Positions 37,199-59,928 of a stretch of 64,000 bases of DNA are shown here, in pieces. Each line of letters begins with the position of its first letter. Positions within the stretch are counted from its first letter, which is position 1. The notes under the pieces are model-generated. The model had not been told where the DNA came from, searched no databases, and saw nothing but the letters and a program-made list of their open reading frames with translations. The stretch lies in IMG/VR virus record IMGVR_UViG_3300011113_000257, positions 1 to 64,000 of that record; one strand, given 5' to 3'. Made by a program: the position numbers and the translations under genes. This DNA comes from a virus.

Positions 37199-37227
37199 TT
37201 GCACTAACCTGACTTTTCTGAGACAAT
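37199..37227 (+). promoter_or_regulatory. Promoter for 37272 gene plus 5' hairpin
   Basis: -35 TTGCAC (37199-37204), 17-nt spacer containing TAACCTGAC, -10 GACAAT (37222-37227). A hairpin GTTGC-AAGGG-GCAAC follows at 37239-37253, then SD AAGGAG. Confidence 0.65.
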
Positions 37228-37271
37228 TGTTTTATCAAGTTGCAAGGGGCAACTGATAGAAGGAGACCAAG

Positions 37272-37478
37272 ATGTCTAACTACCTAACCAAGTCGTATGA
37301 GATTCGCGCCTACACTTTAATGGGCGAGTTCATCTGCGTAGAGTGTGGAGAAAGTCTTTTCAGAAACTCTGACGATGACCCTCAGCCAGTGTTCAGTGAC
37401 CAGTGGAACACTCAGGAGATGCTTGAGACTTATGGGCTAGAAATACCTTGCTTCGCCTGTTACGAAGAAATACGATAG
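37272..37478 (+). CDS. Zinc-ribbon small protein
   Basis: 68 residues with FICVECGESLF and a C-terminal PCFACYEEI, a C-x2-C / C-x2-C zinc ribbon. Rightward, on a short transcript with its own promoter, leader hairpin, AGAAGGAGA SD and a terminator at 37490-37520. It probably binds host or phage RNA polymerase or other partners, but no specific function is known. Confidence 0.75.
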   Translation: MSNYLTKSYEIRAYTLMGEFICVECGESLFRNSDDDPQPVFSDQWNTQEMLETYGLEIPCFACYEEIR

Positions 37479-37489
37479 CCAAAGGCATA

Positions 37490-37520
37490 AGCCCCTACAC
37501 CGCAAGGTGTGGGGGTTTAT
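37490..37520 (+). terminator. Terminator with GCAA tetraloop
   Basis: A stem of about 10 bp (CCCCTACACC / GGTGTGGGGG) closed by GCAA is followed by a T-rich run, directly after the 37272-37478 gene. Confidence 0.8.
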
Positions 37521-37578
37521 CTTTGCTTACCGCAGATAGGCATAACCGCAACACGCCAAAAACTTTTTACCGTATGAC

Positions 37579-37607
37579 TTGCATTAACCTGACTTTTCTG
37601 GAATAAT
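37579..37607 (+). promoter_or_regulatory. Promoter for 37648 gene plus 5' hairpin
   Basis: -35 TTGCAT (37579-37584), 17-nt spacer with TAACCTGAC, -10 AATAAT (37602-37607). A 6-bp hairpin at 37618-37634 has loop AAGGG. Nearly identical to the 37199 promoter. Confidence 0.7.
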
Positions 37608-37647
37608 CATCTTATGAGGTTGCAAGGGGCAACCGCGAGAGGAAGCA

Positions 37648-37959
37648 ATGACCGTAGAAAAACTAATCGAAGAATACCTAGAGGTTCTAAACGATAAGGC
37701 ACTAACTATCTGCACTACCGCATACGGAGTAAGCAAGGGACGTAAGTTTGCAAAGGTACTGGCACACGGTACTCAGACATCAGTACACGCTTTCGTAAAC
37801 CTAGAGAACGGTGACGTAATCAAGCCAGCAACATTCAATGCACCGCAGAAAAATTCTGACGGTACTTTTTCAGTCCGCTACAACTTAGTGGATGACGAAT
37901 CACGCAAGGCACTATTCGCAGAGTTAGACCCGTATGGTCACTACCTTTACGCAAGGTAG
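37648..37959 (+). CDS. Conserved phage protein of unknown function
   Basis: 103 residues. The middle has SVHAFVNLENGDVIKPATF, a motif familiar from small proteins of many phages (VHAF-D-x-x-GDV-x-KPA). Monocistronic, with its own promoter, leader hairpin and a shared bidirectional terminator. Function unknown. Confidence 0.75.
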   Translation: MTVEKLIEEYLEVLNDKALTICTTAYGVSKGRKFAKVLAHGTQTSVHAFVNLENGDVIKPATFNAPQKNSDGTFSVRYNLVDDESRKALFAELDPYGHYLYAR

Positions 37960-37971
37960 CCAACTAGAAAA

Positions 37972-38003
37972 ACCCCCCCACCGCAAGGTGAGGGGGCTTT
38001 CTT
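37972..38003. terminator. Bidirectional terminator with GCAA loop
   Basis: A strong stem (CCCCCACC / GGTGAGGGGG) around GCAA with A-run on one side and T-run on the other, between convergent genes ending at 37959 and 38016. It can stop both transcripts. Confidence 0.85.
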
Positions 38004-38015
38004 ATTTACGAAAGA

Positions 38016-38285
38016 TTAAACGCTTTCGCTTTTCTTGCCTTTTGACTTTGTATCAACCGAGTTAAACACTTCATCAATTTCTGCATCAGACAAGTCACCG
38101 TCATTAATGTAGGCGCGTGATAAGCCCTCGACTACGGTAGCGACTCCACCGACTCCAGCCATAAGAATTGCTTGCCAGAGTTCGACTCCAGCAATAGTTC
38201 CAGCACCGATAACCGATAGACCTGAAGCAGAGAATACGGCAAGAATACGCAAGGTAATCTTTCGTATCTTATTAGTTACTGTCAT
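38016..38285 (-). CDS. Small membrane protein, holin-like
   Basis: 89 residues from the ATG at 38285 with SD GGAAGGA; the longer frame to 38387 lacks support. Two hydrophobic helices (ILAVFSASGLSVIGAGTIAG and a Leu/Gly-rich one from AILMAGVGGVATVVEGL) and a charged C-terminus are reminiscent of actinophage holins. A second candidate is at 61613. Whether it makes lytic pores or serves another membrane role is not known. Confidence 0.55.
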   Translation of the reverse strand: MTVTNKIRKITLRILAVFSASGLSVIGAGTIAGVELWQAILMAGVGGVATVVEGLSRAYINDGDLSDAEIDEVFNSVDTKSKGKKSESV

Positions 38286-38387
38286 AGTGTGTCGTCCTTC
38301 CAAAATTTCACACGGTGCTAAAACAATTTCAGCACCCAGCCTTACGAGTTTATCGCAGGTATTGGGTGCTGAAATTATTTGTGGCAA

Positions 38388-38663
38388 CTACTTAACAATA
38401 ATTCTCATTGCTGTCGGTGCAGTTACTTCAACAACTGGTGCAGGTGCAGGTTCGACAACTGGTTCAATAATTGGTTCTGGTTCTGGCTCAACCGTAGGTT
38501 CAACTACGACTGGTTCAGGTGCAGACTTCCTACCTTTGTATGTCTTTGCAACTGGTTCTTCTACCGTAACTTCCGCTACTGGTTCGACAACTAATTCAGT
38601 CACGGACTCTTCGAGTTCCGCAACTTCATCAACTGTCACTTCAAGTTCTGGATTCAGTTCCAT
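38388..38663 (-). CDS. Glu/Pro/Val-rich low-complexity protein
   Basis: 91 residues from the ATG at 38663 with AAAGGA. It is almost wholly E/P/V with VEPEPEPIIEPVVEPAPAP-type repeats, probably extended and disordered. Such acidic proteins can mimic DNA or act as spacers. No partner can be named. Confidence 0.55.
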   Translation of the reverse strand: MELNPELEVTVDEVAELEESVTELVVEPVAEVTVEEPVAKTYKGRKSAPEPVVVEPTVEPEPEPIIEPVVEPAPAPVVEVTAPTAMRIIVK

Positions 38664-38719
38664 AGTATTCCTTTGTTGAGGTTGTGCCTTGTATCTATTG
38701 TAAGACACAACTCAACTTC

Positions 38720-38872
38720 CTAGTTCTCTCTAATAGAGAGTAACGCAAGGCTAACCGCGTTAAGACCGAAAGCAAGTGTTAGCAAGTCTTTGCCTAACAT
38801 TGCCGAAACTACTGCCAATACCCCCGCGCCGAGCGAGGCTACTGCCACCCAAATAATTTCAGTTCTATTCAC
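38720..38872 (-). CDS. Two-helix membrane microprotein
   Basis: 50 residues from a GTG at 38872 inside the end of the HTH gene (8-nt overlap), with AAGG upstream. Two hydrophobic helices (IIWVAVASLGAGVLAVVSAM and LLTLAFGLNAVSLALLSI) are joined by GKD. Holin- or antiholin-like in shape and near another holin-like gene; activity unproven. Confidence 0.6.
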   Translation of the reverse strand: MNRTEIIWVAVASLGAGVLAVVSAMLGKDLLTLAFGLNAVSLALLSIREN

Positions 38873-39059
38873 TAGAAACCTTTTTCGGGCGAGTTCGACC
38901 CTTTAACCGAGTAGACGAGTCACGCAACTCAACGCCTTCAGCCCAAACTGCCTTCCGCGCTGTACGGTAGCAAACATCTAGTTCACTAGCAATAGTTTCA
39001 ATAGACTTACCTTCTAGGTACATTTCGCTTGCTTGCTTACTAATTTTCTTGACAATCAT
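38865..39059 (-). CDS. Small HTH DNA-binding protein
   Basis: 64 residues. A helix-turn-helix is evident (KSIETIASELDVCYRTARKA) after a helical start. The C-terminus is basic (RLKGRTRPKKVSSE). It probably regulates phage genes or helps recombination. SD AAAAGGAAAAG. A stem-loop CTACCCC/GGGGTAG lies upstream at about 39090-39118. Confidence 0.75.
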   Translation of the reverse strand: MIVKKISKQASEMYLEGKSIETIASELDVCYRTARKAVWAEGVELRDSSTRLKGRTRPKKVSSE

Positions 39060-39107
39060 TATTTACTTTTCCTTTTCTTTTTCTATGTAGGGGCTTGCCC
39101 TACCCCC

Positions 39108-39266
39108 TTAGGGGTAGAGCAAGTCTTTACAACTTTGAGATAACTCAACGGTATCCACCTTGCATCTATCTGGCGTAGCCAAGTTCTCTGCTACTACAAA
39201 CATCGCAATCAGTATTACCGCAATGAATACGTTCCGAACACGTTCTCCGCGCTTAGTAAGTTTCAT
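39108..39266 (-). CDS. Single-pass membrane protein
   Basis: 52 residues from the ATG at 39266 with SD AAAGGAGAG. A basic N-terminus (KLTKRGERVR) precedes one transmembrane helix (VFIAVILIAMFVVA) and a C-terminal domain with two Cys. The orientation is probably N-in. Function unknown. Confidence 0.65.
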   Translation of the reverse strand: MKLTKRGERVRNVFIAVILIAMFVVAENLATPDRCKVDTVELSQSCKDLLYP

Positions 39267-39304
39267 CTTGCTCTCCTTTTCGTTGAACCATTCAACTAAG
39301 GACA

Positions 39305-39333
39305 ATCTTACGCACTAACCTGCACTTTGTCAA
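39305..39333 (-). promoter_or_regulatory. Promoter for 39266 gene, inside HDAC gene end
   Basis: -35 TTGACA (39328-39333), 17-nt spacer with AGGTTAGTGCG, -10 TAAGAT (39305-39310). It overlaps the last codons of the deacetylase-like gene. A GTTGAA-TGG-TTCAAC hairpin follows. Confidence 0.7.
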
Positions 39334-40252
39334 GTCCAGACACGCGAGTCTTTTCATAGACGTTAGCCACTACTTCAGCCCAGATAGACGGCGTATGCGT
39401 ATGAGGTTGATAACCACCCGCACCGCCTATCAACACGCGCCCTTGAGCGTAAGTGTTAGCAATGTCCGCAACTATGTCTGAGGCGTATGCATAGCCGTCA
39501 TAGTCAAATTGCAAACTAGCAAGCGGGTCAGTCTTGTGACCATCCGCGCCAGTAGCCAGTAGCACAACATCAGGTTGATACTTATCCGCAAGTTCACGGA
39601 TGTCATCCATAGCCTGAGCAAACTCCAAGTTCCCAGCACCACGAGGCAACGCCCAGTTGTAAACTGAATTTTTTTCGTCGTGACCACTACGCCCAGTTCC
39701 AGGGAATACAGTCCCGTCGTGAATACTCATAGTTGGAATGTCCGTATGGTAAAGCAATGCCTCAACTCCGTCACCGTGATGAGCATCCCAGTCAATGTAC
39801 ATAGTCTTTAGACCTGCTTCACCGAACTTCTTTCCAGCCCAAGCAATGTCATTAAACACGCAAAAACCACTTGAGTAGTCATAGTGAGCGTGATGCTTTG
39901 CACCTTGAGGATTAAAGCCAACTTGCACTTCTCCAGCAATCATCTTCTCAACTAGCCGAGCCGTACCTGCAAACATCTTGAGCGCAGTAAGACCAAGTTC
40001 TGGTTTTGTTCCTGCCCACTCATTCGATAAGCCAAGTAGCACTTCTTGAATGTAGGCAGGGTGATGCACTTTATGTAGTTCTTTAATGTCCGCATCCGTG
40101 CTTTTAGGCGCAACAATCTTTACGCTATTTTTGCCTAACTTGTCAATAAGCAAGTCGGTAGCAAGCAATGCGCGTTCTGGATTAGTAGGGTGACCTTCAC
40201 CTAACTGCCAATCCAAATAATCATTTCCGTATGCAATGTGTAATTTTGTCAT
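39308..40252 (-). CDS. Histone deacetylase-like amidohydrolase
   Basis: 314 residues, full family length. HPTNPERALLA near residue 21, GAKHHAHYDYSSGFCVFND (the His-His catalytic dyad region) around 118, DWDAHHGDG (zinc ligands D and H) around 150, GADGHKTDPLA (zinc ligand D) around 236 and GGAGGYQ near 285 are all in place. It should hydrolyse acetyl groups from lysine or polyamine substrates. It is coupled to the phosphatase gene (stop TAA directly followed by this ATG). Phage deacylases are uncommon; the substrate is unknown. Confidence 0.92.
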   Translation of the reverse strand: MTKLHIAYGNDYLDWQLGEGHPTNPERALLATDLLIDKLGKNSVKIVAPKSTDADIKELHKVHHPAYIQEVLLGLSNEWAGTKPELGLTALKMFAGTARLVEKMIAGEVQVGFNPQGAKHHAHYDYSSGFCVFNDIAWAGKKFGEAGLKTMYIDWDAHHGDGVEALLYHTDIPTMSIHDGTVFPGTGRSGHDEKNSVYNWALPRGAGNLEFAQAMDDIRELADKYQPDVVLLATGADGHKTDPLASLQFDYDGYAYASDIVADIANTYAQGRVLIGGAGGYQPHTHTPSIWAEVVANVYEKTRVSGLDKVQVSA

Positions 40253-40759
40253 TTAGTCATTTCCTTTCTTCTCTAAATCTAGTAACCACTTTTCGTAGTC
40301 TTTGTTGCAAAGTACAAGAACACTTCTTGACTGTCGCAAGTATGTGATACTTTCCTCAGCCGAGTAGCCTCTACTCATTAGCACTAATGCGCTAACAAGT
40401 CCAGACCTATTCAGCCCAGACAAGCAACGAATCAGAACACTCTTTCCCGCGTCAAGTTCGTAGTTCACAAAGTCCACTAAAAATTTCAGTTCTTCTTCGT
40501 TAAACTCCGCAACACTTCCATCTTCAAAGTGTTGCCGAAACTCTCTAACGTGCCAGTCCACGGGATTACTCCAAGCGTGTAGTGTCACCACCGTATCAAA
40601 GTCCTGCTTTGTAATCCGTGGTTCTATCTCTGGCTTTCCAACAATGTCATCTTCATCAGTTCCGCCCATAAATAAATTGGGATAAACTTCTGTCCATAAC
40701 TCTTTTGGCATCAGTTCCGCATAAGTTCCGAGTCCTTCTTCCTTTTCGTATTTTGTCAT
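40253..40759 (-). CDS. Dual-specificity protein phosphatase-like
   Basis: 168 residues. The P-loop reads CLSGLNRSG (C-x5-R-S) at about residues 126-134, preceded by Arg instead of the common His. A DSP-type ending follows (SAEESITYLRQSRSVLVLCN). It would dephosphorylate Tyr or Ser/Thr phosphoproteins. It shares its transcript with the deacetylase-like gene, and its promoter lies at 40777-40805. Confidence 0.85.
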   Translation of the reverse strand: MTKYEKEEGLGTYAELMPKELWTEVYPNLFMGGTDEDDIVGKPEIEPRITKQDFDTVVTLHAWSNPVDWHVREFRQHFEDGSVAEFNEEELKFLVDFVNYELDAGKSVLIRCLSGLNRSGLVSALVLMSRGYSAEESITYLRQSRSVLVLCNKDYEKWLLDLEKKGND

Positions 40760-40776
40760 TTTTTCCTTTCCCTTGA

Positions 40777-40805
40777 AGAATAACAGGTTAATAACATTTT
40801 GTCAA
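40777..40805 (-). promoter_or_regulatory. Promoter for phosphatase-deacetylase operon
   Basis: -35 TTGACA (40800-40805), 17-nt spacer, -10 TATTCT (40777-40782). The GATAAC direct repeats lie just upstream at 40828-40851. Confidence 0.7.
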
Positions 40806-40827
40806 ATTGACGGGAAAAGATAAAACC

Positions 40828-40851
40828 CTGTTATCAAATCGTTATCAAATG
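40828..40851. repeat. GATAAC direct-repeat operator-like site 1
   Basis: Two copies of GTTATCAAAT-type units about 10 bp apart (opposite strand reads GATAACGATTTGATAAC), between the divergent promoters of the phosphatase and the 40925 gene. The same pair recurs near 57979-57996 and 61875-61900. Confidence 0.55.
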
Positions 40852-40853
40852 GA

Positions 40854-40883
40854 TTAGGAAATGTCAGGGTAATGCGCTATGCT
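40854..40883 (+). promoter_or_regulatory. Promoter for 40925 gene plus 5' hairpin
   Basis: -35 TTAGGA (40854-40859, weak), 18-nt spacer with ATGTCAGGGTA, -10 TATGCT (40878-40883). A hairpin CCAAC-AAGGG-GTTGG at 40895-40909 follows, then SD AAGGGG. Confidence 0.6.
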
Positions 40884-40924
40884 TAGTACATAAGCCAACA
40901 AGGGGTTGGTGAAAAGGGGTAACA

Positions 40925-41167: not shown

Positions 41168-41341
41168 AATCCTATACACGGGCTCACAAGGGTCGCCACC
41201 TTCGTCAGCGTATTCCTGTTCTTCAGGGGTTAAGTAATCCCAACCACTATCGTGTACCGCGCAATACTGCTCGCTAATCCACCCTTTTGTTCTGCCAAAC
41301 AGTATCCACTCCGCGCGTTCATCCCATTCTTCGTCTTGCAT
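41156..41341 (-). CDS. Acidic small protein
   Basis: 61 residues from the ATG at 41341, 6 nt after AGGGG; the longer frame begins at an unsupported GTG. It contains YCAVHDSGWDYLTPEEQEYA and DPCEPVY. It follows the HslV-like gene at 17 nt, and the repeated CTGAAATTTTTA element lies between them. Function unknown. Confidence 0.6.
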   Translation of the reverse strand: MQDEEWDERAEWILFGRTKGWISEQYCAVHDSGWDYLTPEEQEYADEGGDPCEPVYRILNL

Positions 41342-42252: not shown

Positions 42253-42483
42253 CTACTTAAAAACAGTAGTGAGCCTGTCGCTTAGGTTTACTATCTTGAC
42301 TATCTTGCTAGTGTTGTCTGGATTAAGTTCCCTAATCAACGCACTAGCCTTTGGATTATTGACCGCACTAAGTTGCTTATGGGCGTAGGCAATAGCCAGC
42401 CCCAAAGAGGTTTGAGTTCTACTCTCGAACGGAGGCTTTATTTCTTTGCCCTTCGAGGTCATTAGTGATACTGAATACTTCAT
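42253..42483 (-). CDS. Small basic protein, leaderless transcript
   Basis: 76 residues; N-terminus MKYSVSLMTSKGKEIKPPFE. The -10 (TAGACT at 42490-42495) lies only 6 nt before the ATG, so the transcript likely begins at or next to the start codon, with an AAAGGT sequence overlapping. Function unknown. Confidence 0.65.
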   Translation of the reverse strand: MKYSVSLMTSKGKEIKPPFESRTQTSLGLAIAYAHKQLSAVNNPKASALIRELNPDNTSKIVKIVNLSDRLTTVFK

Positions 42484-42857: not shown

Positions 42858-42893
42858 CTTGCTCTCCTTTTTATCGCCCCTTGCGATAGTTCT

Positions 42894-42923
42894 ATCATAA
42901 CACAAGTCTCTGACCTTTGTCAA
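42894..42923 (-). promoter_or_regulatory. Promoter for 42857 gene plus 5' hairpin
   Basis: -35 TTGACA (42918-42923), 18-nt spacer with GGTCAGAG, -10 TATGAT (42894-42899). Hairpin TATCGC-AAGGG-GCGATA at 42872-42888. Confidence 0.65.
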
Positions 42924-43204: not shown

Positions 43205-43429
43205 TCACTCCCCAATCTCTGGAATGTCGTAGTCGTTCTGCCAACCGCACTTAGGGCAAGTCCAAACACCGCGCCCCCAGTCGTCAAAAGATACTTCCTC
43301 TGTACCCTCAAACTTGCAGTCAATCTCCGCGCCTGACTGAAACTCAATAATGCCTTTGCACTCTAGGTCATCAATCTCTGCTGAATCCGCGTAGAATCCT
43401 GAACCTCTTAGTGAACCTTCGTAACTCAT
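43205..43429 (-). CDS. Zinc-ribbon small protein
   Basis: 74 residues. Cysteines in LECKG and IDCKF and the strong WTCPKCGWQND motif near the end indicate metal binding. Acidic overall. Own promoter at 43468 with a TATCGC hairpin in the leader. Confidence 0.7.
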   Translation of the reverse strand: MSYEGSLRGSGFYADSAEIDDLECKGIIEFQSGAEIDCKFEGTEEVSFDDWGRGVWTCPKCGWQNDYDIPEIGE

Positions 43430-43467
43430 TTTGTTTCCCTTCTTCTATCGCCCCTTGCGATAAATCT

Positions 43468-44187: not shown

Positions 44188-44188
44188 G

Positions 44189-44267
44189 TCCCAAGAGTAG
44201 GAATCGAACCTACCGTGCCAAAGCGAGTGATTTACAGTCACCTTCCCCACCTTGAGGAATCCTTGGG
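44189..44267 (-). tRNA. tRNA-Tyr (anticodon GUA)
   Basis: Folds into a cloverleaf: acceptor CCCAAGG/TCTTGGG, anticodon stem GGTGA/TCACT with loop CTGTAAA (anticodon GTA), a variable region of about 12 nt and a T-arm GTAGG-TTCGATT-CCTAC. Discriminator A. No CCA is encoded after it. Own promoter at 44287-44315. It may aid translation of phage genes. Confidence 0.9.
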
Positions 44268-44286: not shown

Positions 44287-44315
44287 AGTTTATCATACTA
44301 GTTATCTTTTTGCAA
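44287..44315 (-). promoter_or_regulatory. Promoter for tRNA-Tyr
   Basis: -35 TTGCAA (44310-44315), 17-nt spacer ending GTATGA, -10 TAAACT (44287-44292). The -35 lies in the end of the 44469 gene. Confidence 0.65.
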
Positions 44316-44490: not shown

Positions 44491-44519
44491 AGTGTACAAC
44501 ACTTTCCTGACAAATGCAA
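44491..44519 (-). promoter_or_regulatory. Promoter for 44469 gene
   Basis: -35 TTGCAT (44514-44519), 17-nt spacer with TTGTCAGG, -10 TACACT (44491-44496). Confidence 0.65.
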
Positions 44520-44827: not shown

Positions 44828-44856
44828 AGTCTATCATACCTACCTGACATTTGCAA
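44828..44856 (-). promoter_or_regulatory. Promoter for 44798 gene
   Basis: -35 TTGCAA (44851-44856), 17-nt spacer with ATGTCAGGTAGGTATGA, -10 TAGACT (44828-44833). A CGTGT/ACACG hairpin adjoins the -10; it would begin upstream of the transcript start here. Confidence 0.6.
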
Positions 44857-45030: not shown

Positions 45031-45079
45031 TTGAAACCCCTTTAGGTTTAGTATCAAGACCCCTTGCCTTGATGAATCA

Positions 45080-45108
45080 AGTCTATCATACCTACCTGAC
45101 ATTTGCAA
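45080..45108 (-). promoter_or_regulatory. Promoter for 45030 gene plus 5' hairpin
   Basis: -35 TTGCAA (45103-45108), 17-nt spacer ATGTCAGGTAGGTATGA, -10 TAGACT (45080-45085). Hairpin at 45053-45073 with an 8-bp stem and loop AAGGG. Confidence 0.7.
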
Positions 45109-45466: not shown

Positions 45467-45500
45467 TTTTTCTCCCTTTCGTGGTATTTCCACTACCTAA

Positions 45501-45529
45501 AGTAAACCACTTTATCTGACAAAAGTCAA
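45501..45529 (-). promoter_or_regulatory. Promoter for 45466 gene plus 5' hairpin
   Basis: -35 TTGACT (45524-45529), 17-nt spacer with TTTGTCAG, -10 TTTACT (45501-45506). Hairpin GTGG-AAATA-CCAC at 45481-45493. Confidence 0.6.
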
Positions 45530-46366: not shown

Positions 46367-46410
46367 TTTGTTCTCCCTCTATCGGTTACTTCCTGCAACC
46401 TGATAAATCA

Positions 46411-46439
46411 AGTATAACACACTAACCTGACAAATGCAA
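46411..46439 (-). promoter_or_regulatory. Promoter for 46366 gene plus 5' hairpin
   Basis: -35 TTGCAT (46434-46439), 17-nt spacer TTGTCAGGTTAGTGTGT, -10 TATACT (46411-46416), the best consensus match. Hairpin GGTTGC-AGGAA-GTAACC at 46384-46400. Confidence 0.75.
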
Positions 46440-46821: not shown

Positions 46822-46856
46822 TTGCTTCCCTTTCTCTGTGGTACTTCCACTAAAAA

Positions 46857-46885
46857 ATAATAACACATCTCCCTGACATTTGCAA
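46857..46885 (-). promoter_or_regulatory. Promoter for 46821 gene plus 5' hairpin
   Basis: -35 TTGCAA (46880-46885), 17-nt spacer ATGTCAGGGAGATGTGT, -10 TATTAT (46857-46862). Hairpin GTGG-AAGTA-CCAC at 46838-46850. Confidence 0.7.
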
Positions 46886-47360: not shown

Positions 47361-47389
47361 ATTGTAGCGCATTAGCCTGACATTCGCAA
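47361..47389 (-). promoter_or_regulatory. Promoter for 47333 operon
   Basis: -35 TTGCGA (47384-47389), 17-nt spacer ATGTCAGGCTAATGCGC, -10 TACAAT (47361-47366). Confidence 0.7.
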
Positions 47390-47851: not shown

Positions 47852-47895
47852 TTCTTATCCCTTCCGCAAGTAAGCCCTTCTTACTCGCTGTATCT

Positions 47896-47924
47896 ATAAT
47901 ACTAAATTACTTGACTATTGTCAA
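47896..47924 (-). promoter_or_regulatory. Promoter for 47851 gene plus 5' hairpin
   Basis: -35 TTGACA (47919-47924), 17-nt spacer with ATAGTCAAG, -10 TATTAT (47896-47901). Hairpin AGTAAG-AAGGG-CTTACT at 47869-47885. Confidence 0.7.
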
Positions 47925-48266: not shown

Positions 48267-48490
48267 TAGAACACTCTCCCATACTCGTTTTCAACTACTG
48301 ATAAATCAACAGGTGATGTAACTTCCCATTGTTCGTATGGTGTTGGGTCGTAACTATCTCGGCATTCGTTACACCATAGTTCGGGAAACCAACGGTGCTT
48401 TTTAGACATTTCGGCGATTGGAAAGTCTTGTTCGCAATCCACGCAAAAATCGTTTTCTTCTGGTATTTCAACTCCAAGCCATTGTGTCAT
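48266..48490 (-). CDS. Zinc-ribbon small protein
   Basis: 74 residues with FCVDCEQDFPIAEM and LWCNECRDSYD. First gene of a three-gene zinc-ribbon operon coupled by TAATG overlaps. Own promoter at 48533. Confidence 0.7.
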   Translation of the reverse strand: MTQWLGVEIPEENDFCVDCEQDFPIAEMSKKHRWFPELWCNECRDSYDPTPYEQWEVTSPVDLSVVENEYGRVF

Positions 48491-48532
48491 TTTGTTCTCC
48501 TTTTTGTTTTCGCGGGCTATCCGCTTAGTAAT

Positions 48533-48765: not shown

Positions 48766-48806
48766 TTTGGTTTCCCTTTCTTGTAAGGAGTTTCCTTACA
48801 TTTCTA

Positions 48807-48835
48807 ATAGTACGGACTTTCTTGACATTTGTCAA
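48807..48835 (-). promoter_or_regulatory. Promoter for 48765 gene plus 5' hairpin
   Basis: -35 TTGACA (48830-48835), 17-nt spacer with AATGTCAAG, -10 TACTAT (48807-48812). An 8-bp hairpin TGTAAGGA/TCCTTACA is at 48782-48800. Confidence 0.7.
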
Positions 48836-49015: not shown

Positions 49016-49044
49016 ATTGTAGCACACTTCCCTGACATTATCAA
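49016..49044 (-). promoter_or_regulatory. Promoter for 48992 gene
   Basis: -35 TTGATA (49039-49044), 17-nt spacer ATGTCAGGGAAGTGTGC, -10 TACAAT (49016-49021). Confidence 0.7.
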
Positions 49045-49143: not shown

Positions 49144-49452
49144 TTACATAAATCGGTGGTAGAACTCTACTACCTTTTCCCGTGCCTCTTTCCAGTCTGC
49201 CGTAGCGCAGATAGTGACTGTCTGCTCGATACCATTCACATCATCTACCCAACCTATGGCTTCATAGATAGTCACGCCGTCATCATAGTCATAGACCCTG
49301 ACTTCGGCATCTACCGTTTCGTTCATCTCGATAGTGATTGCGTTGTCTGTTACTGGGTTAAGTAGCACCCGTGTAATTCGACTTGCTGGGTGGCGTAGCG
49401 TGGCTAGAAATAATCTAGTGGTTTCGCTGTATGTTGGAATTGTAGTTTCCAC
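49144..49452 (-). CDS. Unknown phage protein
   Basis: 102 residues starting METTIPTYSETTRLFLATLR. Beta-rich with YDYDDGVTIYEAIGWVDDV. No family recognised. Leader hairpin TACCGC-AAGGC-GCGGTA at 49479-49495. Confidence 0.65.
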   Translation of the reverse strand: METTIPTYSETTRLFLATLRHPASRITRVLLNPVTDNAITIEMNETVDAEVRVYDYDDGVTIYEAIGWVDDVNGIEQTVTICATADWKEAREKVVEFYHRFM

Positions 49453-49502
49453 TTTTGTTTTACCCCTTTTGAGTTATCTACCGCGCCTTGCGGTATGTAG
49501 TA

Positions 49503-50101: not shown

Positions 50102-50145
50102 TTGGGTTTCCCTTCTGTAAGCAAGTCCCTCTTGCTCACTCTGTG

Positions 50146-50174
50146 AGTTTATCATACTAGCCTGACATTCGCAA
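50146..50174 (-). promoter_or_regulatory. Promoter for 50101 gene plus 5' hairpin
   Basis: -35 TTGCGA (50169-50174), 17-nt spacer ATGTCAGGCTAGTATGA, -10 TAAACT (50146-50151). Hairpin AGCAAG-AGGGA-CTTGCT at 50120-50136. Nearly identical to the 51174 cassette. Confidence 0.7.
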
Positions 50175-50536: not shown

Positions 50537-50576
50537 TTTGTTTCCTCTCTTTCGCAACCCCTTGTTGCTAGTACCT

Positions 50577-50605
50577 AGCGTACCCTACTTCCCTGACATT
50601 TGCAA
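50577..50605 (-). promoter_or_regulatory. Promoter for 50536 gene plus 5' hairpin
   Basis: -35 TTGCAA (50600-50605), 17-nt spacer ATGTCAGGGAAGTAGGG, -10 TACGCT (50577-50582). Hairpin GCAAC-AAGGG-GTTGC at 50554-50568. Confidence 0.65.
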
Positions 50606-51129: not shown

Positions 51130-51173
51130 TTTGTTTTCCCTTCCGTAAGCAAGTCCGTCTTGCTCACTCTGTA

Positions 51174-51202
51174 AGTTTATCATACTAGCCTGACATTTGC
51201 AA
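51174..51202 (-). promoter_or_regulatory. Promoter for 51129 gene plus 5' hairpin
   Basis: -35 TTGCAA (51197-51202), 17-nt spacer ATGTCAGGCTAGTATGA, -10 TAAACT (51174-51179). Hairpin AGCAAG-ACGGA-CTTGCT at 51148-51164. Confidence 0.7.
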
Positions 51203-52279: not shown

Positions 52280-52322
52280 TTTGTTTCCCTTTCTTAGAGT
52301 GAGTCCCTCTCGCTCTATGATA

Positions 52323-52352
52323 AGTATACGCCCCTAGCCTGACATTTGTCAA
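52323..52352 (-). promoter_or_regulatory. Promoter for 52279 operon plus 5' hairpin
   Basis: -35 TTGACA (52347-52352), 18-nt spacer with AATGTCAGGCTAGG, -10 TATACT (52323-52328). Hairpin at 52306-52326, loop AGGGA. Confidence 0.7.
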
Positions 52353-52777: not shown

Positions 52778-52819
52778 TTGGTTTCCCTTCCTTAGCAAGC
52801 CCTTCTTGCTAATAACTCT

Positions 52820-52848
52820 ATGATACATCAATACCCTGACATTTGCAA
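52820..52848 (-). promoter_or_regulatory. Promoter for 52777 operon plus 5' hairpin
   Basis: -35 TTGCAA (52843-52848), 17-nt spacer ATGTCAGGGTATTGATG, -10 TATCAT (52820-52825). An 8-bp hairpin TTAGCAAG-AAGGG-CTTGCTAA sits at 52792-52812. Confidence 0.75.
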
Positions 52849-53135: not shown

Positions 53136-53177
53136 TTGCTTCCCTTTCGTATTCGCCGTACTTCGGCTTATGTAGTA

Positions 53178-53207
53178 AGGATACACTAAACCCCTGACAT
53201 TTGTCAA
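53178..53207 (-). promoter_or_regulatory. Promoter for 53135 gene plus 5' hairpin
   Basis: -35 TTGACA (53202-53207), 18-nt spacer AATGTCAGGGG, -10 TATCCT (53178-53183). Hairpin GCCG-AAGTA-CGGC at 53155-53167. Confidence 0.7.
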
Positions 53208-53656: not shown

Positions 53657-53701
53657 TTTGATTTCCCTTTCTATCAGTAAGCCTTTCTTGCTGATAAAAC
53701 T

Positions 53702-53731
53702 ATCATACCACACTATCCTGACATTACCTAA
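53702..53731 (-). promoter_or_regulatory. Promoter for 53656 gene plus 5' hairpin
   Basis: -35 TTAGGT (53726-53731, weak), 18-nt spacer AATGTCAGGATAG, -10 TATGAT (53702-53707). Hairpin at 53674-53696, stem ATCAG..CTGAT, loop AAAGG. Confidence 0.6.
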
Positions 53732-55698: not shown

Positions 55699-55741
55699 CT
55701 CTGGCTCCTTCCTTTTGTACGCCCCTTTGACGTACTCTGTG

Positions 55742-55770
55742 AGTTTATCATACCTTCTTGATATTTCCAA
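55742..55770 (-). promoter_or_regulatory. Promoter for VWA gene plus 5' hairpin
   Basis: -35 TTGGAA (55765-55770), 17-nt spacer ATATCAAGAAGGTATGA, -10 TAAACT (55742-55747). Hairpin GTACG/CGTAC at 55717-55735. Confidence 0.65.
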
Positions 55771-55835: not shown

Positions 55836-56867
55836 CTAAATCCTTGCTGGCTTGTATTCCGCACCAAACACGCGAGACAGAACATCTGCCACGATTGGTC
55901 TGTCCATCTCTGGTGCAGAAGCAAGTAAGTTCGAGATACCAAACGGAACCCCGAATGTTGTAACGATGTCGCGGAACGCTAAAAGTTCGCGCATCTGTGG
56001 AGCCCACGAGACTTCACCAGACTCTTGTTTCTTAGCAAGATTCTGCGCAACAGTAACGAGGTTGCTAGGTACACCTAAGGTGCGAGCAAGTGACCAGTCA
56101 GTTGCCATCTCTGCTTGAACAGTAAAGCGAGATAGTAAGGCTTCTGAAAGTCGTACTCCCGGAGCATTAGGGTTAGTTGCACCCACAACATAAAAGTCAG
56201 GGTGAACCTTAACAGTACCTCTGTCAGGATTAGCAGTGACAGTAATTTCGCCACGTCCATCCATCACGCCATACAAACCTGAAAGTTGCTTAGGGTCAAT
56301 CAGACCAATCTCGTCAATGAACAAGACTGCACCTTCCTCTACTGCTCGCACAAGTGGACCATCTACCCACTCGAAACCACCAGCAGGATTCTGTACGAAC
56401 CCACCAAGGAAGTCTGACATTTCGATGTCAGCAGTTCCAAGTACTGTGTACATATTTCCACCAAACGCTGCTTCGACTAATGCAGTCTTACCAGTTCCCG
56501 GTGCGCCATAAAGCAACGCGAACATTGGCGAGCCAACTTTGTCTGTGACAGACAAGGTAGTTGCTTCACGAGCCTTGCGTAATGTTGCAACATCTTGATG
56601 TTCACCCCAAGTACGAGCGTGGTACACACTTCCATTTGGACGAATGTATTGACTACTACTTGATTCAAGTGTGACACCTGATGTTGTAATTGGTGTCGCT
56701 ACGCGAGCAACGCGAGGTGCGCGTTCTACGAAACGACCTTGTGGTAAAACCTGCGAGATTACTCTCATAGATGCTTCTGTTGATACTGACTGCGCAACCA
56801 TGTCGTCTAACATGGAAGTGAATTCAGTTCCCCACTTTGAATAAATTTCATTTTCTTTGATGCTCAT
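55836..56867 (-). CDS. MoxR-type AAA+ ATPase
   Basis: 343 residues. Walker A GAPGTGKTALVEAAF at about 125, Walker B VLFIDEIGLID at about 181, sensor-type VVGATNPN and an Arg-rich end typical of the MoxR/CobS branch. The N-terminus is a helical substrate-binding region. Expected to hydrolyse ATP and act with the VWA protein on a client, perhaps virion or host complexes. It follows the 56884 gene at 16 nt and precedes the VWA gene. Confidence 0.9.
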   Translation of the reverse strand: MSIKENEIYSKWGTEFTSMLDDMVAQSVSTEASMRVISQVLPQGRFVERAPRVARVATPITTSGVTLESSSSQYIRPNGSVYHARTWGEHQDVATLRKAREATTLSVTDKVGSPMFALLYGAPGTGKTALVEAAFGGNMYTVLGTADIEMSDFLGGFVQNPAGGFEWVDGPLVRAVEEGAVLFIDEIGLIDPKQLSGLYGVMDGRGEITVTANPDRGTVKVHPDFYVVGATNPNAPGVRLSEALLSRFTVQAEMATDWSLARTLGVPSNLVTVAQNLAKKQESGEVSWAPQMRELLAFRDIVTTFGVPFGISNLLASAPEMDRPIVADVLSRVFGAEYKPARI

Positions 56868-56883
56868 AATTTTCAGTCCCTTT

Positions 56884-57351
56884 CTACGCTGTGAACATTT
56901 CTGGATAAGATAATGCAGTTCGAGTCTGGTTGATTCGATGCACGACCTTAGTTGGAGTCTTACCTTCTGTTACATCTGTCAAGTCTTTCTGTGAAACTTC
57001 CACAAAAAATGGCTTGCCAATAAGTACGCTACTAATTGAAACGCGCTTCATAAACCACGCTAGTGTTTGAAGTCGCTCCTCGCGATGGTTCTCTGATGTA
57101 ACCCCTGTTGCTGGGTCTACGAGACTACGCTGAAGTGCTTGCACCTTCCATTGTTTCTTTGGCTGTGATGCCGAAAGACGACGATAGTAGACACGCGCTG
57201 TCGAAAAATTTCCAAGTTCATTCCAACCATCTGGAGTAATGAACATCTGAAAAATCTGTTGGTATTCATTCTTGAATTCCGCGTACAAGGCTGTGCCCTG
57301 TACTTTCTTTTCTGGGTCTGTAAGCAGACCAAGAGGTGTTTCTGTTGACAT
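56884..57351 (-). CDS. Unknown protein of the MoxR-VWA operon
   Basis: 155 residues from ATG 57351. No fold recognised; beta-rich centre (RVYYRRLSASQPKKQW). The position as first gene in the MoxR-VWA transcript suggests it helps or is the client of that system. The promoter is at 57398. Confidence 0.55.
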   Translation of the reverse strand: MSTETPLGLLTDPEKKVQGTALYAEFKNEYQQIFQMFITPDGWNELGNFSTARVYYRRLSASQPKKQWKVQALQRSLVDPATGVTSENHREERLQTLAWFMKRVSISSVLIGKPFFVEVSQKDLTDVTEGKTPTKVVHRINQTRTALSYPEMFTA

Positions 57352-57397
57352 AGTGAGTATTTCCTTTCTTTATGTCTTTTGTCCCTGTGACATTTCT

Positions 57398-57426
57398 AGT
57401 TTAGCATAACGCTATGATGGAGTCAA
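57398..57426 (-). promoter_or_regulatory. Promoter for MoxR operon plus 5' hairpin
   Basis: -35 TTGACT (57421-57426), 17-nt spacer, -10 TAAACT (57398-57403). Hairpin TGTC-ACAGG-GACA at 57380-57392. Confidence 0.65.
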
Positions 57427-57430
57427 ATCG

Positions 57431-57462
57431 GGGTAGGAGTATGTCTAAGGAGACCTACCCCG
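57431..57462 (-). terminator. Terminator after 57476 gene
   Basis: Stem CGGGGTAGG/CCTACCCCG, 9 bp, loop about 14 nt. The T-run is weak. Confidence 0.65.
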
Positions 57463-57475
57463 ACCTGACTTCTAA

Positions 57476-57808
57476 CTACTTAGCGACAATGATGTCGTAA
57501 GTAGAAACCTTTGAACAGGTTTCGTATGCTTCTGGATAAACTTCTTTCAGAAGCGTTGAGTCCACATTGGTGCGTGAACGTGGTGCAAGTTCCACTACTG
57601 GAAGCCCTGCGACAGTACCAACCTTGGCAGAACCAATTAGGTCACGAATTGCGCTGTCAAGTTCTGACTTTGCTTTTTCGAGTTCCTTGATTGCAAGTTT
57701 TGCGTTAGCAAAATCTGCAAGCAGGTTCGCGATGTTGGTGTTGTCCAATTCAACGGTGGACGTTTCCGTGACAACCTGTGTTGTCGTTACCTGTGTGCGT
57801 ATGCTCAC
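57476..57808 (-). CDS. Helical protein resembling YqaJ exonuclease C-terminal region
   Basis: 110 residues from a GTG at 57808 with AAAGGGG. KAKSELDSAIRDLIGSAKVG, VAGLPVVELAPRSRTNVDST and LLKEVYPEAYETC resemble the helical region found after the catalytic core in YqaJ-type phage recombinases. The nuclease core itself is absent, so it could be a stand-alone accessory or a remnant. Two promoters precede it. Confidence 0.55.
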   Translation of the reverse strand: MSIRTQVTTTQVVTETSTVELDNTNIANLLADFANAKLAIKELEKAKSELDSAIRDLIGSAKVGTVAGLPVVELAPRSRTNVDSTLLKEVYPEAYETCSKVSTYDIIVAK

Positions 57809-57863
57809 TTTGGCGATTCCCCTTTCAAGGAAAGTTCGATAGACCATCTAACGAACAGTTCTA

Positions 57864-57893
57864 ACTTTACGCCCTACACCTGACATTTGTCAA
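57864..57893 (-). promoter_or_regulatory. Promoter (proximal) for 57808 gene
   Basis: -35 TTGACA (57888-57893), 18-nt spacer AATGTCAGGTGTAGGGCG, -10 TAAAGT (57864-57869). Confidence 0.65.
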
Positions 57894-57942
57894 ATCGAGC
57901 GTTTCCACCCCGATTTCTCGGGCTGTTTTCGTTCATAGAACC

Positions 57943-57971
57943 AATGTAACACATTACCCTGACATCCGCAA
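57943..57971 (-). promoter_or_regulatory. Promoter (distal) for 57808 gene
   Basis: -35 TTGCGG (57966-57971), 17-nt spacer ATGTCAGGGTAATGTGT, -10 TACATT (57943-57948). A CCCGA-GAAA-TCGGG hairpin lies between the two promoters, around 57909-57922. Confidence 0.65.
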
Positions 57972-57978
57972 GTTTATT

Positions 57979-57996
57979 TGATAACGATTTGATAAC
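57979..57996. repeat. GATAAC direct-repeat operator-like site 2
   Basis: TTTGATAACGATTTGATAAC: two copies of TTGATAAC about 10 bp apart, just upstream of the distal 57943 promoter. Confidence 0.55.
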
Positions 57997-58072
57997 GGAC
58001 CGGGAACTGAAATTTTTTAGTTCCGGGTTGTTGAAGGCGGGCTCCAATAAAAAATTTCACTTTTGGGCAAAA

Positions 58073-58121
58073 AGAAACCCCCGTTCGAAACTCACTGGTT
58101 TCGATTTAACGGGGGTTGGTC
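58073..58121 (-). terminator. Strong terminator after 58123 gene
   Basis: 9-bp outer stem ACCCCCGTT/AACGGGGGT plus inner stem CGAAAC/GTTTCG, followed by TTTCTTTTTG on the minus strand. Confidence 0.85.
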
Positions 58122-58122
58122 T

Positions 58123-58311
58123 TTAGAGTTCTTGCTCCCACTTTTCGATGTCAAACATTTCCCAGATTTCATCATCTGTGAAATTTTCCTTCAACCAAAT
58201 AGCGGTGCGCTTTTGGACTACTGGGTTTTCGTCTACTGGCTTAGCAGTTCCGAAGATGCTACCCATAAGGGCTTGGTATGCGTGTGCGTTTGCTTCATGC
58301 GGTTTGTTCAT
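58123..58311 (-). CDS. Unknown small protein
   Basis: 62 residues: MNKPHEANAHAYQALMGSIF, then FTDDEIWEMFDIEKWEQ. The start overlaps the previous stop (ATGA). Last gene of a four-gene operon with the glycosylase-family protein. Confidence 0.65.
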   Translation of the reverse strand: MNKPHEANAHAYQALMGSIFGTAKPVDENPVVQKRTAIWLKENFTDDEIWEMFDIEKWEQEL

Positions 58312-58772
58312 ACTCCTACGGTAACACGAGGCACTGACATTTCTTCAGGTGTCCAAATGTAGGGGAGGTCACTTGGCGTATCGGGAAAAAATTCAGAGTA
58401 GTACTCAGGGGCTTTGCGCAAGAGATTCGAGCGGTGCGATTCGTGGAACCGTGAGTTCCCGATGAACCAAGGCAAGCCTTCGTACCGCTTACCTTGCACC
58501 GTTAGGTCTCGCATCTTCTCGATGAAGTACGGTAGCAGGTTGTCGACATACCCTCTCCGTTTCCACTCCAGCGACATTATTGAACCGTAGTACGCGAGTG
58601 CGAACTCGTGCCCACGCCACATCTTGGTCGCAGGGTGGTTGACCCAACCCGTTGTCTCGCCGTTGAGCGCCATCAGTATTTGCTTGGTCTCAACCCGTTG
58701 CTTCCCGAGCCGTCGGTAGTCCAATACCCTCGCCGTCTTTTCAAAATCGGCGTATGGCAGGAACGTCTGCAT
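58308..58772 (-). CDS. Pyrimidine dimer glycosylase-family (Pyr_excise) protein
   Basis: 154 residues from ATG 58772, inside TAATG with the previous gene; the longer frame to 58829 is unlikely. MQTFLPYADFEKTARVLDYR, RLGKQRVETKQILMAL and VNHPATKMWRGHEFALAYYG match the Pyr_excise family (pfam03013), homologous in part to T4 endonuclease V. Might repair or recognise DNA. Whether it has glycosylase activity is uncertain, since many members lack assay data. Confidence 0.75.
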   Translation of the reverse strand: MQTFLPYADFEKTARVLDYRRLGKQRVETKQILMALNGETTGWVNHPATKMWRGHEFALAYYGSIMSLEWKRRGYVDNLLPYFIEKMRDLTVQGKRYEGLPWFIGNSRFHESHRSNLLRKAPEYYSEFFPDTPSDLPYIWTPEEMSVPRVTVGV

Positions 58773-58933
58773 TAGCCCTCGCCGTTCTCTCGAACTAGCG
58801 CGATGGCTCTCGCCATGCCTGCAGACCAACCGTCGTTAAACGCGACATCCGTCTCGTCCATTTCCTCAGCGTCCGTCATGTCTTCTTCGGTTACCCGTTC
58901 CCACTCCTCCATTAAAATTTCTAATAGTGTCAT
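58772..58933 (-). CDS. Small acidic helical protein
   Basis: 53 residues from ATG 58933, overlapping the previous stop by ATGA. MTLLEILMEEWERVTEEDMT, then DGWSAGMARAIALVRENGEG. Function unknown; cotranscribed with the glycosylase-family gene. Confidence 0.65.
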   Translation of the reverse strand: MTLLEILMEEWERVTEEDMTDAEEMDETDVAFNDGWSAGMARAIALVRENGEG

Positions 58934-59091
58934 GTGGTCACGCCCGCTAACGCCCACGCCTTCTTGAGGTCGCGGTCGAAGTCGCGTTGCAACTTATCCC
59001 ACGCCGTTTCGTCAAAAAGGATTGGGTGCGCCTCTTGCTTATTTCTGCTAAGCACTCGCCGTATAAAAGATTTCAGTTCCGTGTAGTTCAT
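58930..59091 (-). CDS. Small unknown protein
   Basis: 53 residues from ATG 59091 with GGAGGAG. MNYTELKSFIRRVLSRNKQE and FDRDLKKAWALAGVTT. First gene of the four-gene operon. It contains a variant of the recurring AAAGATTTCAG element in its coding sequence. Confidence 0.65.
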   Translation of the reverse strand: MNYTELKSFIRRVLSRNKQEAHPILFDETAWDKLQRDFDRDLKKAWALAGVTT

Positions 59092-59151
59092 GTTCTTGCT
59101 CCTCCTTTGTTTTGCGGGGCACGCCGTGTGCCTCGCCGTCGTGATGTATTA

Positions 59152-59180
59152 ACTTTATGATAAAAGTTTCTAGATGTCAA
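59152..59180 (-). promoter_or_regulatory. Promoter for 59091 operon plus 5' hairpin
   Basis: -35 TTGACA (59175-59180), 17-nt spacer, -10 TAAAGT (59152-59157). Hairpin GGCAC-ACGGC-GTGCC at 59118-59132. It overlaps the end of the 59170 gene. Confidence 0.65.
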
Positions 59181-59454
59181 GCGCGTACTCTGGGAGTTCC
59201 ATCCCTGCCCCAACTAACGCGCGCCGTATTAAACCTTGCTGACGCGAAGTTGTCTGCGAGTATTTATCTACGTTCAGATAAGTAACCTGACGTTTTTCTG
59301 TGTTTATACTAGCCATCCGTGTTGAGTAAGAGTAGATGTCGTAGATGATGTCGCCACCAGCGTCGCACCATTTCGAGGCTCTCATGCTGTGACCGTGCTT
59401 GAATGGTTTGAATGCTGGAATAAATTCTTCTGCAATTTCTTTGTAACTAGGCAT
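59170..59454 (-). CDS. Unknown protein
   Basis: 94 residues. MPSYKEIAEEFIPAFKPFKH, then beta-rich sequence with NVDKYSQTTSRQQG. No domain recognised. Own promoter at 59497. Confidence 0.6.
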   Translation of the reverse strand: MPSYKEIAEEFIPAFKPFKHGHSMRASKWCDAGGDIIYDIYSYSTRMASINTEKRQVTYLNVDKYSQTTSRQQGLIRRALVGAGMELPEYALDI

Positions 59455-59496
59455 TTTTATTTCCCTTCCCGTTGATGTGTCTCACCAACAAGAACC

Positions 59497-59525
59497 ATTC
59501 TATCATACCAACCTGACATTCGCAA
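59497..59525 (-). promoter_or_regulatory. Promoter for 59454 gene plus 5' hairpin
   Basis: -35 TTGCGA (59520-59525), 17-nt spacer ATGTCAGGTTGGTATGA, -10 TAGAAT (59497-59502). An imperfect hairpin GTTGGTG/CATCAAC is at 59471-59489. Confidence 0.65.
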
Positions 59526-59539
59526 CTTAAGGCACGCCA

Positions 59540-59839
59540 TTAGATTTCTTCAGTGTCTTCCATTAGTTCAGGAAGATTTTCCTCAACCATCTCCCAGAAG
59601 GTATCAAAAATTTCGATATTCTCTCGAACCTCTTCAACGGGTGCATCGTATTCAATGGTAACGATTTCGTGGACGTGCTCTTCGTCTTCCTCAACGTGGT
59701 GAGTTCGAAACACATAGTCACCGTCTTCGGTGATTAGGTAATTAATAAACATCACGGAGCACTCAGATGTGAGCGCGACTTGGTATGTCTCGGTTAGGGG
59801 GTCGTAGATAGGACAGCAAGCAGAAATGATGTCGTGCAT
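59540..59839 (-). CDS. Acidic small protein
   Basis: 99 residues if started at ATG 59839 (AAAGGG 7 nt upstream); an upstream ATG at 59893 would lie on a leaderless transcript. Sequence CCPIYDPLTETYQVALTSEC and an acidic tail. No domain recognised. Confidence 0.55.
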   Translation of the reverse strand: MHDIISACCPIYDPLTETYQVALTSECSVMFINYLITEDGDYVFRTHHVEEDEEHVHEIVTIEYDAPVEEVRENIEIFDTFWEMVEENLPELMEDTEEI

Positions 59840-59899
59840 GTAGTGCCCTTTTTTGATGACACGGCTTGGGTGAATGTTGTTCGGTTTGTTCATACTAGC

Positions 59900-59928
59900 A
59901 GTATTGCACATCCGTCTGACATTTCCAA
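59900..59928 (-). promoter_or_regulatory. Promoter for 59839 gene
   Basis: -35 TTGGAA (59923-59928), 17-nt spacer ATGTCAGACGGATGTGC, -10 AATACT (59900-59905). The ATG at 59893 is 6 nt after it. Confidence 0.6.

Follow-up and report, generated by a model that had tools for sequence, protein, structure and literature searches.

Why do dozens of promoters in one phage genome open their transcripts with a hairpin whose stem differs from copy to copy while the loop hardly changes? The question is raised by the small-gene region of a 64,000-nucleotide stretch of viral DNA, hereafter the window, which represents bases 1-64000 of a 110,857-bp IMG/VR virus record (IMGVR_UViG_3300011113_000257). The region holds about 37 sigma70-like promoters, a count that combines a listing of gene starts with promoter scans, the last few starts being read by eye. 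About 27 of them are followed by a hairpin, five are leaderless and five have short unstructured leaders of 17-29 nucleotides (nt), in agreement with the original prediction of about 37 similar promoters, some 25 of them with a hairpin. The evidence points to selection on the folding of these leaders and to a probable role of the hairpins at the 5' end of the messages.

Selection on leader folding

The hairpins are far more frequent than base composition allows. In a set of 124 promoters from the window and its relatives, picked without regard to hairpins, 52% were followed by a stem scoring at least 11 and 32% by one scoring at least 14, against 11.8% and 2.7% in dinucleotide shuffles. These shuffles were substituted as the null for reversed leaders, which were unusable as a control since reversal preserves hairpins. 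The loop was 5 nt long in 52 of the 64 hairpins of this set. Hairpins with an A-starting pentaloop before starts that carry a Shine-Dalgarno (SD) sequence numbered 15 in the window against 0.8 after shuffling, and the corresponding values were 17 and 0.6 in G001, the nearest relative, 17 and 0.2 in G003, 18 and 0.6 in G002, and 188 and 25 over all loci.

The original prediction had named the absence of covariation in related phages as evidence against itself. Covariation is present. In an alignment of 115 distinct rows, each anchored on a sigma70-like promoter and one of three loop 5-mers with no complementarity required (a guard against circularity), the covariation score was 0.549 against 0.179 +/- 0.017 in shuffled alignments, 65.1% of the cells were paired against 39.3 +/- 1.6, and 241 cells were double-changed against 105.5 +/- 9.6. 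Some rows are certainly not hairpins, as the loop motif also occurs in SDs, and the measured pairing is thereby depressed. Sliding the partners by 1 to 3 columns lowered the covariation score to 0.09-0.18. Each of the six flanking pairs was formed more often than in any of 500 shuffles, and each occurs as several Watson-Crick types in the relatives. All five inner pairs were formed in 56 of 122 rows against 1 of 91 permuted 5-mers, with 33 different inner stems. The rows are not phylogenetically independent, but with so large an effect and the drop seen on sliding, shared descent alone is an unlikely explanation. Close orthologues keep every pair; for example, GTTGGTG(AGACA)CATCAAC at window position 59471 corresponds to GTTGATG(AGACA)CGTCAAC. 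When the leaders of distant orthologues were aligned automatically, many pairs seemed falsely 'broken' because whole stems are replaced, and such alignments were read only for close orthologues. As far as comparison of sequences goes, selection on RNA folding, which the original prediction had deduced from varying stems, is thus demonstrated for these leaders, the six flanking pairs covarying far beyond the shuffled and slid controls.

Position at the predicted transcript start

The leaderless genes of the array calibrate the transcript start from within. Among the 124 promoters (score at least 20), by far the commonest position of a start ATG is exactly 6 nt downstream of the -10 box, with 13 cases, and the window examples are the starts at 42483, 46098, 57936, 58311 and 59893. 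Hence, the seventh base after the -10 box is the predicted +1, also for the hairpin-bearing neighbours, which have the same promoters. Ten or more hairpins of the window begin at this base and the remainder within about 5 nt (+1 to +5), as had been proposed from the sequence at first reading. Over the 124 promoters, stem starts cluster 5-11 nt after the -10 box, where the shuffles are flat.

The canonical-loop hairpins that precede SD starts lie directly behind a promoter-like -10 box in 109 of 109 cases (89 strict TANNNT, 77 of these also with a TTG, and 20 near variants such as AATAAT and CATAAT), so that none in this set stands before an internal operon gene. They keep a tight distance to the -10 box and a variable one to the start codon, which nearly all of them precede by 11-24 nt. 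Tight spacing to the promoter, loose spacing to the start codon and absence from internal genes together tie the element to the 5' end of the RNA rather than to the ribosome site, and this strict promoter adjacency favours a role at the predicted 5' end. The stems end before an unpaired, purine-rich SD. In all 10 window leaders folded with RNAfold, the hairpin started at nt 1 or 2 and the main SD was left largely unpaired (z -1.3 to -5.2); a few of the 10 had a weak small hairpin close to the SD.

A hairpin at the start of a transcript, together with the terminator-like hairpins downstream of many units, might recall a boxB- or put-like antitermination or pausing signal read by a phage factor on RNA polymerase, and boxB too has a purine pentaloop. 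The loop of lambda-type boxB is GNRNA; the leader loops start with A. Moreover, little would be gained by read-through in short units that each have a promoter of their own, and such a signal is very improbable here. Nor are the leader stems intrinsic terminators or attenuators, as they are followed by purine-rich SD tails in place of a T run.

The leader hairpins of the window are as follows (loops in brackets; +1 is the predicted start). The loop was expected to be AAGGG, AGGGA or a close relative, and it is so in most copies; the TGG loop at 39282, the ATAGC loop at 48512 and the longer stem at 57834 depart from it.

37238-37254, plus strand: AGTTGC(AAGGG)GCAACT, gene at 37272
37618-37634, plus strand: GGTTGC(AAGGG)GCAACC, gene at 37648; orthologue L086:5036 identical
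39282-39296, minus strand: GTTGAA(TGG)TTCAAC, gene at 39266, promoter 39304-39333; distant orthologues swap the entire stem and still form a hairpin, with AAGG/AAGGG-type loops
40894-40910, plus strand: GCCAAC(AAGGG)GTTGGT, promoter 40855-40883
42872-42888, minus strand: TATCGC(AAGGG)GCGATA from +1, promoter 42894-42923
43446-43462, minus strand: TATCGC(AAGGG)GCGATA, gene at 43429
45053-45073, minus strand: ATCAAGGC(AAGGG)GTCTTGAT from +1, promoter 45080-45108
45481-45493, minus strand: GTGG(AAATA)CCAC, promoter with -35 at 45529
46384-46400, minus strand: GGTTGC(AGGAA)GTAACC with an ATC/GAT extension to +1, promoter 46411-46439
46838-46850, minus strand: GTGG(AAGTA)CCAC at +1, promoter 46857-46885; orthologue loop AAATA
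47866-47888, minus strand: GCGAGTAAG(AAGGG)CTTACTTGC, promoter 47896-47924
48512-48524, minus strand: GCGG(ATAGC)CCGC, gene at 48490; promoter without TGTCAGG
48782-48800, minus strand: TGTAAGG(AAACT)CCTTACA at +1, promoter 48807-48835
49479-49495, minus strand: TACCGC(AAGGC)GCGGTA, gene at 49452
50117-50139, minus strand: GTGAGCAAG(AGGGA)CTTGCTTAC exactly from +1, promoter 50146-50174
50554-50568, minus strand: GCAAC(AAGGG)GTTGC at +3, promoter 50577-50605; orthologue L006:16779 has loop AGGGA
51145-51167, minus strand: GTGAGCAAG(ACGGA)CTTGCTTAC exactly from +1, promoter 51174-51202
52296-52316, minus strand: AGAG-C-GAG(AGGGA)CTC-A-CTCT at +1, promoter 52323-52352
52792-52812, minus strand: TTAGCAAG(AAGGG)CTTGCTAA at +2, promoter 52820-52848
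53155-53167, minus strand: GCCG(AAGTA)CGGC at +5, promoter 53178-53207
53672-53696, minus strand: TATCAGCAAG(AAAGG)CTTACTGATA at +1, promoter 53702-53730
55717-55735, minus strand: GTACGTC(AAAGG)GGCGTAC from +1, promoter 55742-55770
57380-57392, minus strand: short TGTC(ACAGG)GACA, gene at 57351
57834-57856, minus strand: longer hairpin GTTCGTTAGATGGTCTATCGAAC, not of the pentaloop type, promoter 57864-57893
59114-59137, minus strand: GGCGAGGCAC ACGGC GTGCCCCGC, gene at 59091; weaker promoter with -35 at 59180
59471-59489, minus strand: GTTGGTG(AGACA)CATCAAC, promoter 59497-59525

The promoters and their spacer motif

The majority of the promoters have the form TTGNNA-ATGTCAGG-N9-TANNNT, with TTGCAA-ATGTCAGG-N9-TANNNT as the common core. 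ATGTCAGG is the rigid element, lying 9 nt from the -10 box in both spacing classes. The TTG shifts by one base (TTGCAA.. or TTGACAA..), which accounts for the spacer given earlier as 17-18 nt. Scanned with a 29-base matrix, the window yielded 33 sites scoring above 9 bits and shuffled sequence about 3.6, a partly circular excess in that the 18 seeds used for training are counted among the sites. Between 44 and 60 kb the minus strand carries 17 exact copies of TGTCAGG, about one being expected; plus-strand members of the array lie at 37.2, 37.6 and 40.9 kb. The original prediction had implied a coupling between this spacer motif and the hairpin. Across the family, exact TGTCAGG is present in only 23 of 109 hairpin promoters, so the hairpin does not depend on the motif and the coupling finds no support.

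The -35 region also contains a partial dyad, TGACA-AA-TGTCA, with rigid spacing to the -10 box, for example in the promoters at 48807-48835 and 52323-52352. Its sequence makes it a candidate site for a phage regulator, which could use it as an operator or an activator site. Binding to DNA has to be considered for the hairpins as well, because their inverted repeats adjoin promoters and a Cro/C1-type helix-turn-helix protein is encoded in the remainder of the genome (L166:238-528, record position about 64.2 kb). The repeats would then be operators for a dimeric DNA-binding protein, as has been proposed for the extended start-associated sequences (ESAS). Such a reader needs conserved arms, however, and here 33 unrelated stems surround the same non-palindromic loop; the conserved TGTCAGG with its dyad makes the better operator. 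Of all the readings considered, a DNA-level element is the least probable.

Array promoters without a hairpin, all on the minus strand, are the following.

44491-44519, minus strand: short unstructured leader
44828-44856, minus strand: 29-nt leader without a +1 hairpin
47361-47389, minus strand: short leader
49016-49044, minus strand: short leader
57943-57971, minus strand: before a leaderless ATG 6 nt after the -10 box, calibrating +1 internally
59900-59928, minus strand: promoter of a leaderless gene, the outermost of the array

Two further observations concern the surroundings of the promoters. A 14-mer, ACTGAAATTTTTTA, is repeated between genes, in many cases right behind a terminator and 40-70 bp upstream of an array promoter, and is a candidate UP-like element or protein site. 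Its copies are located as follows.

44573, 45567, 46926, 49098, 51252, 52908, 53768, 53807, 59964, 61296 and 61344, minus strand: 14-mer ACTGAAATTTTTTA
46179, 50207 and 58006, plus strand: 14-mer ACTGAAATTTTTTA

A tRNA-Tyr (gta) gene at 44188-44267 on the minus strand is adjoined by array-like promoter sequences, namely TTGCGAAAGCAAACCTAGTATGATAGACT and a similar one at 44315.

The conserved loop

The loop consensus is a pentaloop, A-R-R-G-R. Of 118 promoter-linked pentaloops, 113 have A at position 1, 106 have A or G at position 2, 109 have G or A at position 3 and 96 have G at position 4, while position 5 is G, A or T and mostly a purine. The closing pair is free, being CG in 63, GC in 25, UA in 12 and AU in 3 of 103 five-base loops. 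GNRA or UNCG loops close 85 of 194 terminators and none of 145 leader hairpins of the same phages, a contrast which makes the loop a leader-specific trait and not a general preference of the genomes. These patterns indicate that the A-R-R-G-R loop is under selection of its own, and they suggest recognition or a fixed fold.

Recognition may be of more than one kind. The three commonest loops, AAGGG, AGGGA and AAAGG, are also the three commonest SD 5-mers of these leaders, as would be expected if the loop displayed a second SD-like sequence, a standby site on which the 30S subunit docks before shifting to the real SD. Yet AAGGA and AGGAG, which are frequent in SDs (37 and 29), are nearly absent from the loops, and the loops AGACA, AAATA and AAGTA have no SD match. 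The loose distance from stem to start, and the absence of canonical hairpins from internal genes, where a standby site would be equally useful, also speak against ribosome recruitment, which is improbable.

Alternatively, a dedicated RNA-binding factor could read the pentaloop and its 5'-terminal position while leaving the stems free, which would join about 27 transcripts in a post-transcriptional regulon. This is possible, if doubtful; less likely again is the version in which the ARRGR loop is bound by one specific RNA-binding protein or nuclease, of the phage or of the host, that switches the stability or translation of all array genes together. The constancy of the loop with a free closing pair and the different loop types of leaders and terminators fit such a reader, and phage T4 gp43 recognises a fixed-loop hairpin upstream of its own start codon (PMC3014915). 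On the other hand, the loop varies within limits (AAGGG, AGGGA, AAAGG, AGACA, AAATA), the Pfam matches of the phage name no RNA-binding domain among the 25 of 63 families listed, and a candidate reader was not found. CsrA is absent from the phage and AAGGG has no GGA core; nor do AAATA and AGACA contain GGA, and CsrA/RsmE targets were rejected on these grounds.

The favoured reading

The leader hairpins are probably, though far from certainly, devices that protect the 5' end of the mRNA and keep the ribosome site open. A host-type (sigma70/SigA-like) promoter would fire at each of about 27 small units, and the first 15-25 nt of each RNA would fold into a hairpin starting at +1 to +5, with the purine-rich SD and the start codon downstream staying unpaired. 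Decay that depends on the 5' end (RppH-like decapping, RNase J, RNase E) would be held off by the hairpin, and the many short phage messages would as a result be long-lived and well translated. The pentaloop might act as a fixed, purine-stacked cap that finds no pairing partner elsewhere in the purine-rich leader, or it might be the target of an RNA-binding factor from phage or host. A stem from +1, few unpaired 5' bases and a free SD constitute the arrangement of ompA and T7 gene 10, which is what suggests protection.

Several facts weigh against this explanation. Plain end protection needs no single loop; GNRA or UUCG would serve, and these are used in the terminators and never in the leaders, which implies selection for more than stability. 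Expression does not require the hairpin, since several array promoters lack one and at least five are leaderless. Sibling phages whose gene arrays are similar, such as DSL-LC01, manage without it. The fixed loop is therefore not explained by end protection alone.

Distribution among phages

The phage encodes portal and major head proteins, an r1t-type holin, a proteasome-like protease, WhiB and ThyX, and its BLAST relatives include Actinomycetia phage DSL-LC01, Microbacterium phages Pumpernickel, A3Wally and Cece, and Gordonia phages. Judged by gene content and these relatives, the phage is an actinobacteriophage of a large, mostly uncultured group. Its nearest relative, G001 (119,711 bp), has an AAA-ATPase 97% identical and the same kind of array on orthologous genes. 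The portal protein found no relative in cellular genomes, and hence no host or host origin came from that search; the exact promoter core gave 37 scattered matches there with no actinobacterial cluster, and likewise no host or host origin. The core is present in 30 viral-contig stretches, several of them from the group of the window phage.

In the AAA-ATPase tree, all phages with at least two such hairpins fall in one subclade of 19 rows (support 92/73), nested in a group of 29 rows (98/98). Some members of the subclade have no hairpins on the short stretch examined, and the other 45 rows show none or single chance-like cases. Portal-based relatives outside this tree that carry the hairpins are L093, L104, L105-L109 and L153. 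The array was not found in the stretches read of the known relatives Pumpernickel and Phendrix.

Leader hairpins behind TATAAT boxes were also seen in other phage groups (L026, L039, L041, L080, L082 and others). Their loops are of 3-4 nt and are closed by A-U (A-CAG-U, A-ACG-U) or C-G (AAAC), and they are perhaps a related variant of the same module. A different leader precedes the r1t-type holin gene of the window (38285-38380, minus strand): it is long and structured, GGTGCTGAAA-TTG-TTTTAGCACC, with a possible alternative upstream partner CAGCACCC, and its conservation can be recognised in about 20 relatives with protein identities as low as 56%. Possibly this leader is a regulatory RNA in its own right.

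Over the window and its relatives, well over 100 phage 5' leaders share one architecture while their stems vary freely. They form a natural library in which evolution alone reveals the sequence rules for a protective (or protein-read) hairpin at the 5' end. The hairpins predict transcript 5' ends within a few bases in uncultured phages, and the module offers a marker for one phage subclade and leader parts for actinobacteria.

Comparison with known systems

In Rfam 15 the array had no match at the gathering score, only sub-threshold ones, including one on the tRNA. The literature searched, the coverage of which leaves out most subscription journals, contained no earlier report of a conserved set of phage leader hairpins.

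Among the siblings, DSL-LC01 (OQ999401) resembles the window phage in its portal (69% identity), its AAA-ATPase (59%) and a small-gene array in which many genes have their own near-identical promoter. It differs in its promoter core, TCTAAAGNTGTTATAAT without ATGTCAGG, and in its leaders, which are mostly unstructured (CAACAAC..CGAAAGGACAA) and have no A-pentaloop hairpin. Its region 22600-43400 (L186) contains more than 20 near-identical promoters, GATTCTAAAGATGTTATAATAGAATC, with an inverted repeat around the -10 box and CAACAAC-type leaders.

The start-associated sequences (SAS) and ESAS of cluster K mycobacteriophages are likewise repeated inverted repeats directly upstream of SD-like sequences at many small actinobacteriophage genes (PMC3203893). 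SAS, GGGATAGGAGCCC, allowing two mismatches, has 0 matches upstream of starts in the window where 0.5 are expected. Whereas ESAS are 17-bp inverted repeats whose arms keep a consensus within each genome, the leader hairpins have 33 distinct inner stems, mostly of 4-10 bp, with free, covarying arms and a conserved loop. The authors of the ESAS study noted that the changes in the two repeats, left and right, lend no support to pairing in the RNA (PMC3203893). An ESAS identity is ruled out by the absence of SAS, the lack of an arm consensus and the covarying arms, and the original prediction was right to keep the two apart. An ESAS-like layout in another actinobacteriophage group is thus an RNA feature and not a DNA site.

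A phage-wide hairpin family with variable stems and a fixed loop is known from T4, where a 5' CUUCGG hairpin stabilises gene 32 mRNA (Tuerk 1988, as described in PMC8948821) and where the copies are mostly intergenic. The T4 loop is UUCG and the present one an ARRGR pentaloop; here most units in a single gene array have the hairpin at the predicted +1, and hairpins with the canonical loop lie only behind promoters. Membership of the CUUCGG family was rejected, as none of the 145 leader hairpins has a UNCG loop and CTTCGG is at chance level in the window.

The closest likenesses are single leaders. The ompA mRNA is stabilised by 5'-terminal stem-loops (Emory, Bouvet and Belasco 1992, as cited in PMC7509114), with a stem at the extreme 5' end, few unpaired bases and 5'-end protection as the function; ompA is a host gene, without a loop code or an array. 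The stem-loop of T7 gene 10 raises expression 1.5-3-fold and increases mRNA abundance (PMC6146998). As in the window, the T7 hairpin is 5'-terminal, following a phage promoter directly and preceding a strong SD. This T7 leader is transcribed by the phage RNA polymerase. It is a single leader, in contrast to about 27 divergent copies behind host-type promoters with a conserved loop. Both traits common to ompA and T7 gene 10 recur in the window, where the stems lie within a few nt of the predicted 5' end and the SD and start codon downstream are unpaired in the RNAfold models of the 10 leaders. Such 5'-terminal hairpins are known singly, and a clade-wide set with one loop code would be a new form of a known kind of element.

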